Origin: Occallatibacter sp.
GTDB lineage: Bacteria; Acidobacteriota; Terriglobia; Terriglobales; Acidobacteriaceae
Assembly: GCA_031296215.1 (NCBI GenBank)
Contig: JARLGE010000114.1
Span: forward strand, 62,001-126,000
Direction of reading: 5' to 3'
DNA: 64,000 bases
Shown here piece by piece: positions 573 to 10,172 of this stretch. Position 1 is the stretch's first letter, and each line of letters begins with the position of its first letter. Both the position numbers and the translations under genes were made by a program. The notes under the pieces are model-generated. The model ran no database searches and was not told where the DNA came from. It saw only the letters and a list, made by a program, of their open reading frames with translations.

Positions 573-2069
573 ATGGGATTGAATGAGCTAGACTTGGCCG
601 TCATCGCCGCCTATCTCGCCGGAGTAACTCTGTTCGGGTTGCGCTTCCGACGGAAGCAGCGGACCTTGAGGGACTACTTTCTTGCCGGTAACACGATTCC
701 GTGGTGGGCTATCTCGCTGTCGATCGTCGCGGCGGAGACCAGTACGCTGACCATCATCAGCGTGCCCGGCCTGGCCTATGAGAAGGACTTCCGCTTCCTG
801 CAACTGATTATCGGATACTTTCTCGGGCGCGTGGTCGTAAGTCTGGTGCTCATTCCGCAGTATTTTCGCGGCCGGCTAGTAACTGCTTACGAGTTGATCG
901 AAAGGCGATTCGGCGGCAAGCTGCGATCGTTGACTGCGGGGATGTTTCTGCTGACCCGCGCGGCTGCCGAAGGGGTGCGGGTCTTCGCCGTGGCCATTGT
1001 GATCCGGGTTGCATTGGGCGGTCTGCTGGCGGGCCTGGGCGAAACCCAGCGCGATGTGGCCGCCATCGCCATTGTGACTGTGCTGACTCTGCTCTACACC
1101 TTCGAGGGAGGCATGGCCGCGGTCATCTGGACGGACGTTGTGCAGTTGGCGATCTACCTGACGGGGAGCATGGCAGCCGCCTATTGCATCTTGGGCCTGG
1201 TGCCGGGTGGATGGGAGACGATTCACGGAGTGGCCGGCCAGGCGAGTAAGTTTCGGGTGTTCGATGTCTCCTGGAATCTTTCAGCGACTTATACCTTGTG
1301 GTCGGGAGTGATTGGCGGCGTGTTCTTGACCATGGCCAGTCATGGCACCGACCAATTGATCGTGCAGCGACTGCTTTCAGCACGCAGCGAGCGGCAGGCC
1401 AAGATGGCGCTGATTTCGAGCGGCGTGGCGGTCTTCTTTCAGTTTTTTCTTTTTCTTCTTATCGGCGCCATGCTTTATGTGTTTTACAAGTTATTCCCGC
1501 CCGCAGCGGCGTTTACGCGCACGGATACGATCTTTCCCAACTTTGTTGTTACCCGCCTGCCGCATGGGGTGGGCGGCCTGTTGATCTCCGCCATCCTGGC
1601 GGCGGCCATGTCGAACCTGAGCGCCGCGTTGAATTCATTGTCGTCGACGACAATTGTCGACTTCTATGCGCGGATTTGGCCGCTGGCGACGGAGGAGCGC
1701 CGCGTACGGCTTTCGCGGCTGGCTACGCTCGGCTGGGGGGGTGTGCTATTTGGGCTGGCATTGCTGGCGCGGCACGGAGGAAAGGTCCTGGAGATGGGGT
1801 TGTCGATCGCATCGGTCGCGTACGGATCGCTGCTGGGGGTCTTCCTTTTAGGTGTGCTCACCAGGCGCGCTTCGGAACGCGGCGCAATGGTTGGGATGCT
1901 GACTGGCTTCGTTTTGAATCTCTACCTGTGGCTGTTTACCGGCGTGCCGTTCACTTGGTACGTTGTTCTGGGGAGCATTGCGACGTTTCTTGTTGGCTAC
2001 GGCGCGAGTTGGATATTGCCCAAGTCGAGTTACTCACAATCAATCGTTCAAGCGGAACAGTGCGAGTAG
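573..2069 (+). CDS. Sodium:solute symporter (SSS family)
   Basis: A 498-residue polytopic inner-membrane protein, the usual length for the SSS family, with about 13 hydrophobic segments. Family signatures include DYFLAGNTIPWWAISLSIVA near residue 40, where the GxxxxWW-type motif sits between TM1 and TM2, and the ISAILAAAMSNLSAALNSLS segment near residue 340 that contributes to the sodium site. It should import a small solute with Na+. The start is taken at ATG 573 because GGGAG lies 6-10 bases upstream; a TTG directly before it is also in frame. It is followed after 10 bases by the NamZ fusion gene, so the two are probably one operon and the solute may be a muropeptide sugar or sugar acid. 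Substrate cannot be read from sequence. Confidence 0.9.
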   Translation: MGLNELDLAVIAAYLAGVTLFGLRFRRKQRTLRDYFLAGNTIPWWAISLSIVAAETSTLTIISVPGLAYEKDFRFLQLIIGYFLGRVVVSLVLIPQYFRGRLVTAYELIERRFGGKLRSLTAGMFLLTRAAAEGVRVFAVAIVIRVALGGLLAGLGETQRDVAAIAIVTVLTLLYTFEGGMAAVIWTDVVQLAIYLTGSMAAAYCILGLVPGGWETIHGVAGQASKFRVFDVSWNLSATYTLWSGVIGGVFLTMASHGTDQLIVQRLLSARSERQAKMALISSGVAVFFQFFLFLLIGAMLYVFYKLFPPAAAFTRTDTIFPNFVVTRLPHGVGGLLISAILAAAMSNLSAALNSLSSTTIVDFYARIWPLATEERRVRLSRLATLGWGGVLFGLALLARHGGKVLEMGLSIASVAYGSLLGVFLLGVLTRRASERGAMVGMLTGFVLNLYLWLFTGVPFTWYVVLGSIATFLVGYGASWILPKSSYSQSIVQAEQCE

Positions 2070-2079
2070 GAAAATAGAG

Positions 2080-4500
2080 ATGGAGCAGATTACTTTCAGA
2101 CGGGCGACGATGACCGGTACCCGGAGAAGCTTACGCCTGCTGTCGTGCTTCGCGGCTTTCATGCCTTGCATTTTTGTTTCCGCGCTTGCCCGGGAGCCGC
2201 AGAGGGACTTGGACGGCGGCTTCAAGGCGGTCGACGTGATTGTGGAGAAGGCGGTTGCGGAGGGCAACATCCCGGGCGCTGTGCTGGTGGTCGGGCACAG
2301 CGGCAAGGTGGTTCATCGCAGGGCCTTCGGATCGAGGTCGCTGGAGCCGGTGCGCGAAGCGATGACGATCGACACGATCTTCGATCTGGCATCGATGACC
2401 AAGTGCATTGCCACCGCGACCTCGGTGATGAAACTGGTGGAGGATGGGCGCCTTCGGCTGGGCGACTCTGTGGCTACGTACCTGCCGGAGTTTGCCCAGA
2501 ACGGCAAGATGGACATTACGGTCCGCGATCTGCTGACGCACTACTCAGGGTTGGCGCCGGACCTGGACCTGAAGTCCCAGTGGTCGGGGCGCGAGGCGGC
2601 CTACTTTATGGCCATGCGCGCGAAGCCTGCGAATCCGCCCGGTTCGCAGTTCGTCTATAGCGACATCAACTTCGAGGTTCTCGGCTTTCTGGTCGAAAAG
2701 ATTACCGGCCAGCCGCTGAATGAGTTTGCCGACGCGAACATCTTTGCGCCTCTGGGGATGAAGGAGACGCGGTTTCTGCCCCCGCAGGCGTGGAACGCGC
2801 GTATCGCGCCCACGCAATACGATGAGCAGGCCAGGATGCTGCGCGGTACGGTGCACGATCCCACCGCGCGGCGCATGGGCGGAGTTGCCGGCCACGCGGG
2901 ATTGTTTTCGACCGCCGACGACCTGGCGCTTTTTGCGGAGGATTTGCTGAGCGGCTTCACGGTGTTGAGCCGGCCGGCGATTGCGAAGATGTCGTCGCCG
3001 CAGCAGCCGCCGAACGCTTCGGTCTTACGAGGGTTGGGATGGGATATCGACTCGCCGTTTTCGACCAATCGAGGCGAGCTGCTGCCGGTGGGCTCGTTCG
3101 GGCACACCGGGTTTACCGGAACCTCGTTGTGGATCGATTCCGTGACAGACACTTACATTGTTCTGCTTACCAACGCCATTCATCCGCACGGGGGCAAGTC
3201 GACGGTTTCGCTTCGATGCAAGGTCGCGACGGCCGTAGTGCAGGCACTTGGCCTGACCGTAAGCGAGCAGGAAAAGCTGCGTATGGCGGAGATCACGGGC
3301 TACAACGAGTTGATGCCTGCGGCGCGGCGCATTGGCTACCGAAACGGCGACGTCAAGGCGGGGATCGATGTGCTGGAGGCGCATGGATTCCGCGAACTTC
3401 ACGCGGATGCGAACCATCCGGTGCGCGTGGGACTGGTCACGAATCAGACAGGGATCGACGCGCGCGGAGAGCACACGGCGGACGTGCTGGCGCAAGCGCG
3501 TGGAGTCAAGCTGGCCGCGATCTTCAGTCCGGAGCACGGCATTCAAGGCAAGCTCGACACGACGGAGATTGGTAACTCGAAAGACGAAGTTACCGGCGCG
3601 CCCGTTTATAGCGTGTATGGCGACAGCGATGCCAGGCGGCGGCCATCGAGCGAAGTCATGGCAGGGCTCGACGTGGTCATCTTCGACATACAGGACGTTG
3701 GCGTGCGGTTCTATACCTACGAGAGCACACTGGGTTACTTTGTTGAGGCGGCGGCAAAGGCGGGCAAGGAGATCGTTGTGCTCGACCGTCCCAACCCGAT
3801 CGGCGGCGCGTATGTGCAGGGCCCGGTTGCCGACGCGGGCAGGGAATCGTTCGTGAGTTACTGGCAGACTCCGGTGCGGCACGGGATGACGATGGGCGAG
3901 CTGGCAAAGATGTTCAATGCGGAGCGCGCGATCGGCGCCAGGCTGACGGTAGTTCCGATGGAAGGATGGATACGCGGCGACTGGTTCGATGCGACCGGTG
4001 AGTTATGGGTAAATCCCTCGCCGAACATGCGGAGCCTGACCGAAGCCACACTTTATCCTGGCATCGGCATGATTGAAGCTTCCAATATCTCGGTAGGGCG
4101 GGGAACAGATACTCCATTTGAGTTAGTCGGCGCGCCTTGGGTTAATCCGGTTGGGCTGGCCAGAGCTCTCAACGCGCGGGAGTTATCGGGCGTGCGCTTT
4201 ATTCCTGTCGAGTTTACGCCGGATAACTCGGCGTATGCTCATCAAGAGTGCGGCGCCGTGCGGATTGTTGTTATGGATCGGAACGCGCTGGATGCGCCGG
4301 AGCTGGGTATCGAAGTCGCGGCTGCCCTGCAATCGCTATACCCGGTCGACTATAAGGTTGCGGGAGTGGATACGCTGATGGTGAACAAGGCTAGCCTGGA
4401 TGCGATTGCAGCGGGACAGGATCCGCGACGCGTGGCGGAGCAATGGCGGGAGGGGCTGGAGCGGTTCGAAGCGGTGCGGGCGAGATATCTGCTTTATTGA
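2080..4500 (+). CDS. Serine hydrolase (AmiE/beta-lactamase fold) fused to NamZ-type exo-muramidase (DUF1343)
   Basis: An 806-residue exported protein with two enzymes in one chain. Residues about 1-37 are a signal peptide (LRLLSCFAAFMPCIFVSALA). Residues about 45-390 form a class C beta-lactamase-like serine hydrolase: SMTK with Ser105 and Lys108, the tyrosine motif YSD in QFVYSDINFE, and HTG in SFGHTGFTGTS. Residues about 428-806 match DUF1343, the family of NamZ exo-beta-N-acetylmuramidase (GH171): VGLVTNQTG, FSPEHGIQG, DIQDVGVRFYTYESTLGYF and LDRPNPIGG. In Bacillus subtilis, separate AmiE and NamZ proteins strip peptide and release terminal MurNAc; here both would be tethered. The start at 2080 has AGGAAA upstream; ATG 2110 is an alternative that leaves a shorter signal peptide. 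The fusion state is seen directly; the muropeptide role is inference. Confidence 0.88.
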   Translation: MEQITFRRATMTGTRRSLRLLSCFAAFMPCIFVSALAREPQRDLDGGFKAVDVIVEKAVAEGNIPGAVLVVGHSGKVVHRRAFGSRSLEPVREAMTIDTIFDLASMTKCIATATSVMKLVEDGRLRLGDSVATYLPEFAQNGKMDITVRDLLTHYSGLAPDLDLKSQWSGREAAYFMAMRAKPANPPGSQFVYSDINFEVLGFLVEKITGQPLNEFADANIFAPLGMKETRFLPPQAWNARIAPTQYDEQARMLRGTVHDPTARRMGGVAGHAGLFSTADDLALFAEDLLSGFTVLSRPAIAKMSSPQQPPNASVLRGLGWDIDSPFSTNRGELLPVGSFGHTGFTGTSLWIDSVTDTYIVLLTNAIHPHGGKSTVSLRCKVATAVVQALGLTVSEQEKLRMAEITGYNELMPAARRIGYRNGDVKAGIDVLEAHGFRELHADANHPVRVGLVTNQTGIDARGEHTADVLAQARGVKLAAIFSPEHGIQGKLDTTEIGNSKDEVTGAPVYSVYGDSDARRRPSSEVMAGLDVVIFDIQDVGVRFYTYESTLGYFVEAAAKAGKEIVVLDRPNPIGGAYVQGPVADAGRESFVSYWQTPVRHGMTMGELAKMFNAERAIGARLTVVPMEGWIRGDWFDATGELWVNPSPNMRSLTEATLYPGIGMIEASNISVGRGTDTPFELVGAPWVNPVGLARALNARELSGVRFIPVEFTPDNSAYAHQECGAVRIVVMDRNALDAPELGIEVAAALQSLYPVDYKVAGVDTLMVNKASLDAIAAGQDPRRVAEQWREGLERFEAVRARYLLY

Positions 4501-4538: not shown

Positions 4539-5834
4539 TTAAAAAAAGGTCTGAACAATATCGATAACCTGATAGTCAGCGTTCACAATGGGCACGGTGC
4601 GCCATTTATCGAAGGTCAGGCAGGGATGGCAGATGTCGAAGGCGATCATGTCTCCGACGCGAAGATCGTCTCCTGGGTGGATTTGCAGGTAGGCATGCTG
4701 GTCCATCATCTTTGTAACTTGCCAGTGGGTGGGAGTTAGTTGCGGAGTTAGGCTACCGGGCCGGTAGTAGAGCGCCGGCACGGGCAGTCCAGAGTCAAAT
4801 GCGGCGTCGCGCTTGCCCAAGGCCACGATTGCCCTCTGCGATTCCGGAATCGATTGCACGTAGGCCCAGATATGCAGGGCGGGCACGAGTCCGGAGTTCA
4901 TGCGATGGGCGATGGGGTTCTGTTCCAGGATTCTTTCCTGGGCCTGGCGATAGGCGCCGACGTCGTGAGTGAGATAGCAGCCGGGACGCAGGACGATATC
5001 AACTGCGTCTCCGAATCCGGCTGAAGAGAAGACTTCCGCGACAACGTCGTACCAGGCAGAGCCCGCGCCAGAGAGCAGGAAGGGTGCGCGCCGGAGGCGA
5101 TTCTCTTGGGCGAGCTTGCGCGTGACTTCAACCGTGCGGTGGAGGAAGGCGCGGATGGAAGACTCGCCGTTGAGAACGCCCTCGTAGATTTCGACCCCAT
5201 CGAGGGCGATAGCCGTTTGCCAGCGAGACAACGCCTGGAGCACCGATTGCAACTTTAGATTGTCACGGACGCCGGTGCGGCCGCCCTCGACGCCGAGTTC
5301 GAGGAGCACGTGGAGGCGGAGGCCGAGGAGCGAATAGAATGCGCCCAATTGATCCACCTGGTCTGCTGAGTCGACCAGACAATAGAAATCGAACTCCGGG
5401 TCGCGAAGCAATTCCGCGATGACGTTCATGTTCTGTTTGCCTATCAATTGGTTCGCCATCAGGACGCGGCGCACACCGTGAGCGTGGGCGACTTGCACTT
5501 GGTGAGCGGTGGCGAGCGTGATCCCCCACGCGCCTGCTTCGAGTTGGAGATGGAAGAGTCGAGGAGCCATGGTGGTTTTGCCGTGGGGCGCAAGCTTTAA
5601 TCCATAGGCGGAGATGAATTGGCGCATCCAATTCAAGTTGTGCAGCAGCTTTTCCTGGTAAAGAACGGCCGTTGGAAGACTCAGGTCTTCGCACAGGAGG
5701 TTCCAGTCGAGCTGATTGATGGCGGCGGCATCGAGCACGCGGTTGAACGAGCCCAAGCCCTTGTTCAGCGGGGCGATTGCGGCCGAGTGTGCGATTTGGA
5801 TGGAGTCCTTGTCGGTCAACGAATGCGCTCCCAT
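4539..5834 (-). CDS. PLP-dependent D-amino acid deaminase / D-threonine aldolase-like enzyme
   Basis: A 431-residue cytoplasmic enzyme of the fold-type III alanine racemase-like group. The N-terminal barrel carries the PLP lysine in LAPHGKTTMAP near residue 84, and phosphate-binding and barrel strands follow (VRRVLMANQLIG, LHVLLELGVEGGRTG). The C-terminal domain has the HxC metal-type motif DICHPCLTFDKW near residue 410, as in D-serine dehydratase (DSD1) and related D-amino acid deaminases or D-threonine aldolases. It would deaminate or cleave a D-hydroxy or other D-amino acid. The gene points away from the D-aminoacylase at 5907, only 72 bases apart, which suggests shared control of D-amino acid use. 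The substrate is not decided by the motifs. Confidence 0.85.
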   Translation of the reverse strand: MGAHSLTDKDSIQIAHSAAIAPLNKGLGSFNRVLDAAAINQLDWNLLCEDLSLPTAVLYQEKLLHNLNWMRQFISAYGLKLAPHGKTTMAPRLFHLQLEAGAWGITLATAHQVQVAHAHGVRRVLMANQLIGKQNMNVIAELLRDPEFDFYCLVDSADQVDQLGAFYSLLGLRLHVLLELGVEGGRTGVRDNLKLQSVLQALSRWQTAIALDGVEIYEGVLNGESSIRAFLHRTVEVTRKLAQENRLRRAPFLLSGAGSAWYDVVAEVFSSAGFGDAVDIVLRPGCYLTHDVGAYRQAQERILEQNPIAHRMNSGLVPALHIWAYVQSIPESQRAIVALGKRDAAFDSGLPVPALYYRPGSLTPQLTPTHWQVTKMMDQHAYLQIHPGDDLRVGDMIAFDICHPCLTFDKWRTVPIVNADYQVIDIVQTFF

Positions 5835-5906
5835 GCGCTTCCGGCATCGAGATGGAATAGATGTGGAACGCGCAGCATGAATAGTCTATATTCTGAACGA
5901 GCACCT

Positions 5907-7361
5907 ATGCTGCGCTGCGACACTCTGATCCGAAATGCGAAGGTTCTGGACGGCAGCGGGGGCGCCGCGGAACTCAAGGATGTTGCGCTTTGCGGGGGGC
6001 GAATCGGCGCCATCGGTCCATCGCTTGAGTGCGCAGCGTCCGCGGTCACGGATGCGGCGGGGCTGGTGCTTGCGCCCGGCTTCATTGACGTACACACCCA
6101 CGACGACATTTGCGTGATTCGCAATCCGGCGATGCTGGCGAAGCTGTCGCAGGGCGTGACGACGGTGATCGTGGGCAATTGCGGGATCAGCGCGGCGCCG
6201 TTTCAGTTAGCCGGCGAACTGCCGGAGCCGATGAACCTGCTGGGCGACGCGGGCGATTTTTGCTACCCGACCTTCGCTTCGTACGTTGCGGCTCTTGGCG
6301 AGGCGCGGCCGGCGGTGAACGTGGGCGCGCTGGTGGGCCACACGGCTCTGCGCAACAACCACATGGATAGGCTGGACCGCGCGGCGACTAGTGCCGAGAT
6401 TGAAGGGATGCGGGAGCAGCTCTGCGAGGCGCTGGAGAACGGGGCGCTGGGACTGAGCACGGGGCTGGCTTATCTTTCGGCGGATGCGGCAACTACAGAA
6501 GAAGTGATGGTGCTGGCTGAGCCACTCGGACGGGCTGGTGCGGTGTACACCACGCACATGCGCACGGAGGCGGAGGCGATTCTGGAGGCGATGGAGGAGG
6601 CCTTTGCGATTGGACGAGCGGATCATGCGCCGGTGATCGTGTCGCATTTAAAGTGCGCGGGGATTGGCAACTGGGGACGGGCCGGCGAGGTGCTTCAACT
6701 TCTGGATGCTGGACGCACTGGGCAGCAGATCGGATGCGATTGCTATCCGTATGCGGCCGGATCGAGCACGCTCGACTTGCGGCAGGTGGACGAGCGGTTG
6801 AAGATCACGATTACGTGGAGCACTCCGCACGAGGAAGTTGCCGGACAGACGCTGAAGGAGATTGCGGAGAGCTGGTCTGTGACGCAACTGGAAGCGGCGC
6901 GGCGGTTGCAGTCGGCGGGGGCCATTTATCACAGCATTTCAGAGGGCGACATGCGGCGGATTCTGGCGCATCCGGCGACCATGATCGGGTCGGATGGATT
7001 GCCTTGCGATCCGCGGCCGCATCCGCGGCTGTGGGGCACATTTCCGCGCGTGCTGGGACGCTATTGCCGTGGGGAGAATTTGTTTTCGTTGCCTGAGGCG
7101 GTGCACAAGATGGCGGGGATGCCGGCGCAGCGATTTGGGTTGGCGGAGCGCGGGCTGATCCGCGAGGGCTATTGGGCCGACCTGGTGCTCTTCGATCCGG
7201 AGAGGATCATCGACACAGCGACCTATGAACAGCCAGTCAGCGCGGCGAAGGGAATTGCGGGCGTGTGGGTGAATGGAGAACTCTCTTACACGGCCCGCGG
7301 GGCGACTGGAAATCGTGCGGGGCGTTTTGTTAGGCGCGGGAAGACGGCCTGGGTGCAGTAA
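5907..7361 (+). CDS. N-acyl-D-amino-acid deacylase (D-aminoacylase)
   Basis: A 484-residue amidohydrolase-superfamily enzyme, the usual length of D-aminoacylases. It removes the acyl group from N-acyl-D-amino acids using zinc. Seen motifs are the first metal site DVHTHDD, GNCGIS, GHTALR, THMRTE, the histidine of IVSHLKCAG, and the late aspartate in IGSDGLPCDPRPHPRLWG. The C-terminal small beta domain (LIREGYWADLVLFDPERI) is typical. The start at 5907 gives the canonical beginning MLRCDTLIRNAKVLDGSG; an in-frame ATG at 5877 would add ten residues without family support. It is divergent from the PLP enzyme and 60 bases ahead of the GntP permease, probably in one transcript with it. N-acetyl-D-amino acids could come from peptidoglycan or other D-residues. 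Confidence 0.92.
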   Translation: MLRCDTLIRNAKVLDGSGGAAELKDVALCGGRIGAIGPSLECAASAVTDAAGLVLAPGFIDVHTHDDICVIRNPAMLAKLSQGVTTVIVGNCGISAAPFQLAGELPEPMNLLGDAGDFCYPTFASYVAALGEARPAVNVGALVGHTALRNNHMDRLDRAATSAEIEGMREQLCEALENGALGLSTGLAYLSADAATTEEVMVLAEPLGRAGAVYTTHMRTEAEAILEAMEEAFAIGRADHAPVIVSHLKCAGIGNWGRAGEVLQLLDAGRTGQQIGCDCYPYAAGSSTLDLRQVDERLKITITWSTPHEEVAGQTLKEIAESWSVTQLEAARRLQSAGAIYHSISEGDMRRILAHPATMIGSDGLPCDPRPHPRLWGTFPRVLGRYCRGENLFSLPEAVHKMAGMPAQRFGLAERGLIREGYWADLVLFDPERIIDTATYEQPVSAAKGIAGVWVNGELSYTARGATGNRAGRFVRRGKTAWVQ

Positions 7362-7421
7362 GCGATGCGTTACTATTTCGGTGGCGTGGCCGCCTGAACG
7401 GAGCTTTTTTCTGATCTGCCT

Positions 7422-8771
7422 ATGATCGATCCGCACAGTTTGTTTCTTATTTCGGCGGCGTTTGTGGCTGTTGTCGGGCTGATTGTACTGATTACCGTCT
7501 TCAAGCTCAATCCATTCATTACGCTGCTGCTCACCTCGCTGGCGCTGGCGGTGGCGACGGGGATGCCGCTGGCGACGGTGGTGCACTCGTTTGAAGCCGG
7601 CGTGGGCGGAACGCTGGGGCACATTGCGATCATTGTGGCGCTGGGGACGATGCTGGGCAAGATGATGGCGGAGTCGGGCGGCGCGGACCAGATTGCTCAC
7701 ACGCTGATCCGCTTCTTTGGAGAAAAGCGAGTTCATTGGGCGATGATGGTGATCGGCCTGGTGATCGGGCTGCCGGCGTTCTTCGAAGTGGGATTTGTTC
7801 TGCTGATTCCGATTGCGTTCACGGTGGCGCGCCGGACGCGGACTTCGCTGATCCTGGTGGGTCTGCCGATGGTGGCTGGACTTTCGGTGGTGCATGGACT
7901 GGTGCCGCCGCATCCGGCGGCGCTGCTGGCGGTGACGATCTACAAGGCGGACGTGGGGCGCACCATCTTCTATGCGCTGCTGGTGGGCATACCGACGGCG
8001 GTGATTGCGGGGCCGCTGTATGCGAAAGTGATTGCGCCGCACATTCATTTGCCGGCGGAGAACCCGATGGCAGCGGAGTTTGTGGACCACGGAAATGAGC
8101 AGAGCCTGCCGGGCTTTTGGCTGACGCTTTTCACCATTCTGTTTCCGGTAATTCTGATGCTGGCGGGGAGCTGGGCAGATGGCATTTCGACGCCGAAGAG
8201 CGCGGTGAACGAGGGATTGCACCTGATCGGCAACGACGACATGGCGCTGCTGATTGGCGTGCTGCTGAGCTTTTTCACTTTAGGACGGATGCGGGGGTTT
8301 ACGCGCGCCACGATCTTGCGCTTCAGCAATGAGTGCCTGGCGCCGACGGCGATGATTACGCTGCTGGTGGGCGCGGGCGGAGGGTTCGGAAGGATTCTGC
8401 AGGACAGCGGCGTTTCGCTGGCGATTATTGGCGTCGCGATGCGGAGCCATGTGCCGCTGCTGCTGCTGGCGTGGCTGCTGGCGGCCGCGATGCGGCTGGC
8501 CACGGGGTCGGCGACGGTGGCGATGACGACGGCGGCGGGCATTGTTGCGCCGATCGCGTTGCATGCCGGAGGCGTTCATCCGGAACTGTTGGCGATTGCC
8601 ACGGGAGCGGGGTCGCTGATCTTTTCGCATGTGAACGACGGCGGGTTCTGGCTGGTGAAGGAGTACTTCAACATGAGCGTGGCCGATACGATGAAGACGT
8701 GGTCGGTGTGCGAGACGATTATTTCGGTGACGGCGCTTGTGTTTACGCTGGGGCTGGCGTGGGTGGTGTGA
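7422..8771 (+). CDS. GntP-family permease (gluconate/D-serine type)
   Basis: A 449-residue inner-membrane transporter with about 12-14 hydrophobic segments, matching the length of GntP and DsdX proteins. Family-like stretches are GTMLGKMMAESGGADQIA near residue 83, GLPAFFEVGFVLLIPIAF near residue 115, PPHPAALLAV near residue 162, and GSATVAMTTAAGI near residue 365. Family members import gluconate, other sugar acids, or D-serine with protons. It follows the D-aminoacylase by 60 bases. Because the two genes upstream handle D-amino acids, a DsdX-like D-amino acid substrate is a reasonable guess, but the lactonase-like gene downstream keeps gluconate possible. Confidence 0.9.
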   Translation: MIDPHSLFLISAAFVAVVGLIVLITVFKLNPFITLLLTSLALAVATGMPLATVVHSFEAGVGGTLGHIAIIVALGTMLGKMMAESGGADQIAHTLIRFFGEKRVHWAMMVIGLVIGLPAFFEVGFVLLIPIAFTVARRTRTSLILVGLPMVAGLSVVHGLVPPHPAALLAVTIYKADVGRTIFYALLVGIPTAVIAGPLYAKVIAPHIHLPAENPMAAEFVDHGNEQSLPGFWLTLFTILFPVILMLAGSWADGISTPKSAVNEGLHLIGNDDMALLIGVLLSFFTLGRMRGFTRATILRFSNECLAPTAMITLLVGAGGGFGRILQDSGVSLAIIGVAMRSHVPLLLLAWLLAAAMRLATGSATVAMTTAAGIVAPIALHAGGVHPELLAIATGAGSLIFSHVNDGGFWLVKEYFNMSVADTMKTWSVCETIISVTALVFTLGLAWVV

Positions 8772-8820
8772 TGCGGAAGTTCCTGGGAACCTCTGAAGAA
8801 GCAATTCGGTGAAGCAACCA

Positions 8821-8893
8821 TTCCCTCAGGGGCTGAAGCCCGCGATCATTTTGCTGCATCTACGGCACGACTGAAGTCGTGCCCTTTCAAAAC
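8821..8893. repeat. Palindromic intergenic repeat, copy A
   Basis: Between the GntP permease and the lactonase lies a structured block. It has the block ttccctcaggggctgaagccc at its left end (first 20 bases matter), then the perfect hairpin at 8864-8883 (GGCACGACT, loop GA, AGTCGTGCC), then gccctttcaaaac at 8881-8893. The same three blocks occur in the same order on the other strand at 33011-33097. This looks like a REP-like dispersed element; the wider distribution is not visible from one window. Confidence 0.65.
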
Positions 8894-8930
8894 GGCGACT
8901 TAGCCAGAGGTTCCCTTGAGGATGGACGGA

Positions 8931-10172
8931 ATGAAAGAGGAAGTTTTGCGGCGGGGAGTTAGCCGGCGGGATTTTGTGAAGAGCGCGGGAGCTGTGGCCC
9001 TGGCGCATTCCTCGCTGGGGACTTCGCAGGAGGCTGTGCGGCGGATGGCGGCGAAGCGGACGCTGGCCTACGTGGGCACGTATACCGGCGCATTTGGGGC
9101 GGGAAGCAATGGCGAGGGGATTTACCGGTTCGAGATGGATGCGGCGACGGGCGAACTGACGCGGCGCAAGCTGGTTGCGAAGACACCCGATCCATCTTGG
9201 ATTGCGATTCATCCGTCGAAGAAGTATCTCTACGCGGTGAATGAGGTGAGCGATTACGGCGGGAACAGCGGGTCGGTGAGCGCGTTTGCGATCGATCAGG
9301 CGAGCGGGGATTTGACGGCTCTGAACGTGGTGAGCTCGGAGGGCGCAGGGCCTTGCTATCTGAGCATCGATGCGCTAGGGAAGCACGCGTTTGTGGCGAA
9401 TTATGGCGGCGGGAGCGTGGCGGTGTTGCCGATTCTTGAAGGCGGACTGCTGGGAACTGCGACGGGCGTGCATCGCGATAGCGGGCGTCTGGGCGCTGCG
9501 CAAGCGACGGATGCGCCGGCAGGCAGCTTTGCCGTGAGCGGGCACGACGCCCCGCACGCGCACATGATTGCGCCTGACCCGCAGGGGAGATTTGTGTTGG
9601 CGACGGACCTGGGGCAGGATGGAATCTATGTCTATCGCGTGGATGCGAACACGGCAGCGGTGAGCTTCGGGGACGAAGTGCTCGGTGCGCAGTTGCCATC
9701 GGGCGATGGGCCGCGGCACTTTGCTTTTCATCCCAACGGCCGTTGGTTCTACTCGATTCAGGAAGAGGCTGCGACGGTTGTGTTCTTCCATTACGACGCG
9801 TCGACCGGGACGCTCAAGGCCGAGCAGACGGTTTCCGCTCTGCCTGCGGGATTCGGAGGAACGAGCTTCGCTTCGGAGATTCTGATTTTGCCGGATGGGA
9901 GATTCTTGTATGCGGCACACCGGCTGCACGACACGATTTCGGCGTTCTCGATCGGCGCGGATGGCAGGCTGAAGTGGATTGGAGAGACATCGACGATGGG
10001 CGATTATCCGGGGCAGTGCCGGATTGCGCCGGGCGGGGATTTTCTCTACGCATGCAACCGTCGCAGCGACAGCATCACCTGCTTCAGGATTCATCGCGAG
10101 TCGGGCCTGCTTCAGTTCACGGGCCAGTACACGGCGGTGGGAAGCCCGGCGAGCATTACGTTTCTGAGTTGA
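8931..10172 (+). CDS. Secreted lactonase-family seven-bladed beta-propeller (6-phosphogluconolactonase-like)
   Basis: About 413 residues. The N-terminus has a twin-arginine-like signal (VSRRDFVKSAGAVALAHSS), so export by Tat is likely. The rest is a seven-bladed propeller of the lactonase (Pgl/YbhE) family: repeated units such as PSWIAIHPSKKYLYAVNEV, GPCYLSIDALGKHAFVANYG, DAPHAHMIAPDPQGRFVLAT and GPRHFAFHPNGRWFYSIQEE. Cytoplasmic members hydrolyse 6-phosphogluconolactone; exported members have unproven substrates, perhaps free lactones. The start is uncertain: ATG 8931 has GAGG nine bases upstream, while ATG 8922 and TTG 8916 are also in frame. It stands 159 bases after the permease, separated by a hairpin repeat, and converges with fhs. 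Confidence 0.85.
   Translation: MKEEVLRRGVSRRDFVKSAGAVALAHSSLGTSQEAVRRMAAKRTLAYVGTYTGAFGAGSNGEGIYRFEMDAATGELTRRKLVAKTPDPSWIAIHPSKKYLYAVNEVSDYGGNSGSVSAFAIDQASGDLTALNVVSSEGAGPCYLSIDALGKHAFVANYGGGSVAVLPILEGGLLGTATGVHRDSGRLGAAQATDAPAGSFAVSGHDAPHAHMIAPDPQGRFVLATDLGQDGIYVYRVDANTAAVSFGDEVLGAQLPSGDGPRHFAFHPNGRWFYSIQEEAATVVFFHYDASTGTLKAEQTVSALPAGFGGTSFASEILILPDGRFLYAAHRLHDTISAFSIGADGRLKWIGETSTMGDYPGQCRIAPGGDFLYACNRRSDSITCFRIHRESGLLQFTGQYTAVGSPASITFLS

Follow-up and report, generated by a model that had tools for sequence, protein, structure and literature searches.

A fused S12-type hydrolase-NamZ protein and an adjacent sodium symporter as candidates for muropeptide salvage in Acidobacteriaceae

The 64,000-nucleotide stretch of Occallatibacter sp. 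DNA analyzed here (the window; contig JARLGE010000114.1, positions 62,001 to 126,000) raises the question of whether one exported protein can remove both the peptide and the MurNAc from muropeptides and supply the sugar to a transporter encoded next to it. The gene in question (2080..4500, plus strand) is a single uninterrupted ORF of 806 aa encoding an S12-type serine hydrolase fused to a putative NamZ exo-muramidase. On the plus strand, it comprises a predicted signal peptide (residues 1-37; 2080..2190), a beta-lactamase/S12-type serine hydrolase domain (residues 54-370; 2239..3189; PF00144, 232 bits), an inter-domain region (residues 371-449; 3190..3426), a NamZ N-terminal domain (NamZ_N, residues 450-653; 3427..4038; PF07075, 269 bits), and a NamZ C-terminal domain (NamZ_C, residues 658-806; 4051..4497; PF20732, 148 bits). 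Both NamZ family domains scored above their curated cut-offs of 26.9 and 25 bits, respectively. The S12 domain has the PF00144 motif set, i.e., SxxK (S105-M-T-K108; 2392-2403), a YxN/YxD-type motif (Y193-S-D195; 2656-2664), and K/H-T/S-G (H342-T-G344; 3103-3111), while the NamZ part contains FSPE485HG (Glu485 at 3532-3534) and RPNPIGG. The Glu of the PEHG motif is presumably the NamZ active-site residue. In a 71-row alignment of fusions, S105, K108, Y193, D195, H342, and G344 as well as E485, H486, D536, R543, Y547, D569, R570, and E607 were invariant, which supports that both active sites of the fusion are constrained. The original prediction of a true fusion that keeps its signature residues in both halves (SMTK, HTG, NPIGG, and FSPEHG) is borne out by one ORF, three full Pfam domains, invariant motifs, and recurrence in relatives.

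Hydropathy analysis of the 806-aa fusion placed its strongest hydrophobic segment at the N terminus (residues 18-36) and gave no second signal ahead of the NamZ part. This is consistent with one signal peptide for the whole protein, as had been proposed, with a cleavage site that we read by eye from the sequence near SALA-RE; the fusion is accordingly annotated here as a predicted exported protein. An AlphaFold2 model based on the 71-row alignment had a mean pLDDT of 92.3, supporting that both domains are well folded, and because the pTM was 0.60, the relative placement of the domains was left uninterpreted. The pLDDT was below 50 at model residues 373-382, which correspond to a linker at residues ~410-419 of the full protein within the inter-domain region. 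Using Foldseek, the NamZ half matched 4k05 with a target-normalized TM score of 0.90 and 35% identity. Based on these features, the NamZ half is a predicted exo-beta-N-acetylmuramidase.

The proposed search for the same architecture elsewhere showed that it is common. In the same family, 100 genomes were sampled; 98 had matches, and the two domains were joined in ~78 of the 100, a tally of listed places that takes in symporter-carrying frames (see below) and a few places listed partly or in pieces. The family copies were 49-72% identical to the window fusion. Phylum-wide, 210 of 297 genomes had matches at an E value of 1e-60 or better, of which the long ones are fusions; in some families of the phylum, e.g., in L093, the two halves are separate genes. 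Among named genomes, full fusions were found in Acidobacteriota, Planctomycetota, Verrucomicrobiota, Pseudomonadota, Myxococcota, and Armatimonadota and in metagenome-assembled genomes (MAGs) labeled Desulfobacterales and Syntrophales, i.e., in about seven phyla, with the proviso that many fusion-bearing named genomes are MAGs and that binning errors may account for a few of the labels. Plasmid copies occur in Cupriavidus and Burkholderia, the latter annotated as a NamZ domain protein. This recurrence and conservation, in the family and in several phyla, rule out a one-off or an assembly or frame artifact. The fusion is not novel but widespread and already known: a 2008 survey listed PF00144-DUF1343 (DDPept-DUF1343) once in a table with a function then unknown (PMC2605481). 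On haloarchaeal plasmids, the halves are near neighbors and not fused; on the one inspected (L213, Halorussus halophilus), genes for an S12 hydrolase and DUF1343/NamZ lie close to nagZ and anmK. Haloarchaea should be without murein of their own, and this plasmid gene set suggests scavenging of bacterial walls. We also observed S12-domain homologs with 55-57% identity adjoining a symporter gene in Gluconacetobacter diazotrophicus (L177) and Komagataeibacter xylinus (L178), the latter locus also having murQ. No NamZ was found in these two genomes, indicating that the hydrolase can serve without NamZ. Finally, the fusion on a short contig labeled Rhodanobacteraceae (L109) groups within the symporter-fused clade of Acidobacteriaceae, reflecting either mis-binning or transfer.

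Upstream of the fusion lies a gene for an SSS-type sodium:solute symporter (573..2069, plus strand; ATG at 573, with the longest ORF starting from TTG at 570). The ORF scored 148 bits against PF00474 (cut-off, 22.8) and 224 against TIGR00813 (cut-off, 184). It stops at 2069 and the ATG of the fusion is at 2080, confirming the spacing of 10 bases, and the two genes are probably co-transcribed. The closest solved relative of the symporter is SiaT of Proteus mirabilis (5NV9). In an alignment, SiaT Ser60, Thr63, and Asp182 are kept, while the carboxylate-binding Arg135 is aligned to Ala, Gln82 to Tyr, and Ser343 to Asn; at the Na2-site pair (Ser342 and Ser343), the first Ser is therefore kept and the second is Asn (residue roles from PMC5931594). 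No paper linking Acidobacteria, MurNAc, and a symporter was found in the literature. By analogy to the known carriers discussed below, the symporter probably imports the released acidic amino sugar, MurNAc.

The gene neighborhoods of the fusion in relatives contain genes for MurQ, NagZ-type GH3, GH20, NagA-like proteins, and SSS symporters. In 44 of 78 family genomes, murQ was located within 10 kb of the fusion, compared to ~0.6% expected per genome, although these genomes are related and a binomial statistic overstates their independence. In the commonest layout in the family, MurA-MurQ-second S12 hydrolase and the fusion face each other (L035-L042). The orders symporter-MurQ-fusion-GH3 (G019), symporter-fusion-GH3 (G072), and MurQ-symporter-GH3-fusion (L125, L173, L202, and L203) were also found; in L106, murQ, the symporter, and a NagZ-type GH3 likewise accompany the fusion, and in the Planctomycetota loci L146 and L176, MurQ is divergent from symporter-fusion. 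The neighboring GH3 proteins bear the NagZ-type KHFPGHG...DSH signature. Among the named loci, 43 had long flanks; at least one recycling gene of the tested set was located within 7 kb in 24 of these, and 19 had none of them within that distance. Overall, gene context supports MurNAc salvage. For the earlier proposal that the protein processes muropeptides, these neighbors provide backing, while the amidase role within it is unproven. As a separate observation, the second S12 hydrolase gene clusters with those for MurQ and MurA in many family members (L035-L042 and L191), the genome of the window included.

That genome, which is 88% complete, has one NamZ gene. Its MurQ is encoded on another contig (C218) together with the second S12 gene and MurA, a signal-less NagZ-type GH3 adjoins AnmK (C12), NagK-like BadF kinases adjoin NagA-like genes (C236 and C30), and there are two GH20 genes. 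Among the 8 of 10 GH3 places that were searched for a secreted NagZ, the signal-less neighbor of AnmK was the only one with the NagZ motif. With MurQ, AnmK, NagK-like kinases, and NagA, a route from MurNAc to GlcNAc-6P is encoded, provided that one of the kinases accepts MurNAc. Downstream of the fusion (4539-10172), the window encodes a D-serine-dehydratase-like/alanine-racemase-N protein (minus strand), a D-aminoacylase-like amidohydrolase, a GntP/DsdX-type permease, and a lactonase. All of these genes but that for the lactonase also lie close to the fusion in L110, the closest relative, and a link of the locus to D-amino acids from wall peptides is therefore possible.

In 16 relatives, the symporter, the S12 hydrolase, NamZ_N, and NamZ_C are encoded in one frame of 1258-1574 aa (L043-L048, L079-L085, L089, L090, and the Granulicella MAG L113), as assigned using Pfam for six and phmmer for the rest. 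L048 and L113 start at a contig edge, and two of the symporter-fused genomes (G095 and G305) are single contigs. An initial reading of the frames of 1258-1441 aa as NagZ triple fusions was wrong; Pfam identified them as symporter fusions. Between the symporter part of these proteins and the window symporter, identity is 54-60%, and the suggested link between symporter and enzyme is real in that this symporter is found joined to the enzyme in relatives. In a FastTree phylogeny, all symporter-fused rows were in one supported clade with a few separate rows inside and three changes of state, supporting that the symporter fusion represents one lineage and not repeated convergence. In neighboring clades, separate symporter genes 0-60 bp upstream of the fusion, some overlapping it, are common and suggest how the symporter fusion came about. 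Past the last helix of the symporter, the junction continues with basic residues and a hydrophobic stretch and, in many of the proteins, with a site resembling AxA followed by Q; as read from these features, the segment is the old signal peptide retained within the chain. Symporters of this type have a 13-helix topology, and helix counts by hydropathy were 12 to 14. From this topology and the positive-inside rule, we infer that the hydrolases lie in the periplasm, where they may be either tethered or cut at the retained signal-peptidase-like site. An internal re-start was considered as an alternative to true fusion; only a minority of the proteins (e.g., L043 and L044) have an in-frame Met ahead of the former signal peptide, and translation as one chain is likely based on this check of ATG starts. 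An AlphaFold2 model of the symporter and hydrolase of L113 was set aside (mean pLDDT 65.7, with a poor symporter part). Many symporter-fused loci have genes for GH20 and a NagA-like protein (weak Pfam match) upstream.

NagZ is also fused to these domains. In another family, L086 (5676-9725) encodes a protein of 1349 aa with a NagZ-type GH3, an S12, and a NamZ part, and L166 (4795-7821) encodes GH3 plus S12 and has a separate S12-NamZ fusion, MurQ, MurA, and a symporter as neighbors. A literature search that excluded most subscription papers found no paper on symporter-hydrolase-NamZ or NagZ-hydrolase-NamZ proteins, and both appear undescribed.

Together, these data make it fairly likely that the window fusion is an exported muropeptide-salvage enzyme with two active sites that removes the peptide, then MurNAc, and feeds the adjacent Na+ symporter. 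In this scheme, the S12-type hydrolase would most likely remove the stem peptide at the MurNAc-L-Ala amide, as AmiE does, and the NamZ domain would then take off the peptide-free MurNAc from the non-reducing end. NamZ reportedly acts on peptide-free MurNAc ends. A separate beta-hexosaminidase (GH20 or NagZ-type GH3) would remove the next GlcNAc, the SSS symporter would import the freed acidic amino sugar, probably MurNAc, and the imported sugar would pass to a kinase, MurQ, and NagA. Here, we infer the export, amidase specificity, NamZ activity, order of cuts, and transported substrate, and the first domain is a candidate amidase by gene-neighbor logic and analogy to AmiE. Several observations speak against salvage: the downstream genes of the window look like D-amino-acid metabolism, murQ is on a different contig, the equivalent of SiaT Arg135 is Ala, and the 19 loci mentioned above are without the tested genes nearby.

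The first cut could be of a different kind in an otherwise identical pathway, with the S12 domain acting as a D,D-carboxypeptidase, an endopeptidase, or an esterase (e.g., for O-acetyl removal) that prepares muropeptides for NamZ. The best curated match of the domain is penicillin-binding protein 4B/YfeW (NF002968) at 156 bits, below the cut-off of 385, and the nearest solved folds by Foldseek are EstG, EstB, family VIII esterases, class C beta-lactamases, and the R61 DD-peptidase; both the low score and the esterase-like fold argue against an amidase. However, YfeW, the same relative, is itself encoded with murQP, the PF00144 member of the equivalent Bacillus subtilis cluster (AmiE) is an amidase, and fusions and neighborhoods tie the S12 domain to NamZ and NagZ. 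We regard a non-amidase as unlikely. Somewhat less unlikely, yet still doubtful, is a symporter that carries GlcNAc, a muramyl peptide, or another solute and is linked to MurNAc only indirectly. SSS is a broad family, this symporter is missing from many fusion loci that have murQ nearby, and the GH20 and NagA-like genes found with the symporter-fused version relate to GlcNAc, but murQ adjoins symporters of this type across several phyla, the symporter is joined in relatives to the putative MurNAc-releasing enzyme, MurT sets a precedent (PMC5790795), and the closest solved homolog carries an acidic amino sugar.

The source of the muropeptides is a further matter. That the fusion chiefly feeds on the peptidoglycan of other bacteria, and not on recycling of the cell's own wall, is a possibility that we take somewhat more seriously than the previous two while still not favoring it. 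The classical cytoplasmic pair of signal-less NagZ-type GH3 and AnmK means that own-wall recycling may go another route, and the unfused gene set is present on a plasmid of haloarchaea, which should have no murein; on the other hand, the locus has no sign of lysis of other cells, and MurA beside MurQ in many relatives fits own-wall metabolism. More tentatively, and with the odds against it, the Na+ symporter and the two periplasmic peptidoglycan hydrolases may form one physical digest-and-import unit in the Acidobacteriaceae lineage (adjacent genes in the window), in which a single polypeptide, either remaining tethered or being cleaved at an internal signal-peptidase site, would cut MurNAc from muropeptides directly at the entrance of the transporter that takes it up.

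For the salvage reading, the parts of the pathway recur in varied fusions, i.e., hydrolase-NamZ widely, symporter-hydrolase-NamZ in one lineage, NagZ-hydrolase-NamZ in another, and NagZ-hydrolase elsewhere. From a comparative viewpoint, these different combinations are good evidence for a single muropeptide-salvage route that comprises the S12 hydrolase, NamZ, NagZ, and the SSS symporter in Acidobacteriota and in further, mostly environmental phyla, in which peptidoglycan recycling appears little studied. The new part appears to be the symporter and NagZ fusions, which are in relatives outside the window; testable proteins are gained, including a seemingly undescribed transporter-hydrolase polypeptide.

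Among known systems, the DDPept-DUF1343 entry of 2008 has the same two domains in one protein as the window; no biochemistry of such proteins was found in the literature. RmNag3 of Rhodothermus marinus is a characterized enzyme in which a peptidoglycan-type GH3 hexosaminidase is fused to a beta-lactamase domain, with assayed hexosaminidase activity (PMC6987092); it shares the PF00144 domain with the window fusion, whereas its partner is GH3 and not NamZ. E. coli PBP4B (YfeW) and the window S12 domain are PF00144 homologs with 33% identity over 352 aa, and YfeW is encoded in murRQP-yfeW beside MurQ and the MurNAc importer MurP; however, YfeW is a single-domain protein without a NamZ part, and the window domain is below the PBP4B cut-off. 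In Tannerella forsythia, the SSS-superfamily transporter MurT takes up MurNAc, followed by the kinase MurK and MurQ (PMC5790795). MurT is not fused to hydrolases, and its likeness to the window symporter is one of superfamily and operon logic. SiaT is likewise an SSS protein that carries an acidic amino sugar, although sialic acid and not MurNAc. A further likeness, in gene content, is to the muropeptide-rescue cluster of B. subtilis, in which AmiE (YbbE), NagZ (YbbD), and ybbC (NamZ, YbbC) are clustered with murQRP and the enzymes AmiE and NagZ act in sequence on muropeptides outside cells (PMC5061867); a PF00144 hydrolase, NamZ, a NagZ-type GH3, and MurQ are all found in the neighborhoods of the relatives. 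While Bacillus uses separate proteins and PTS import, the window encodes one polypeptide and an SSS symporter.
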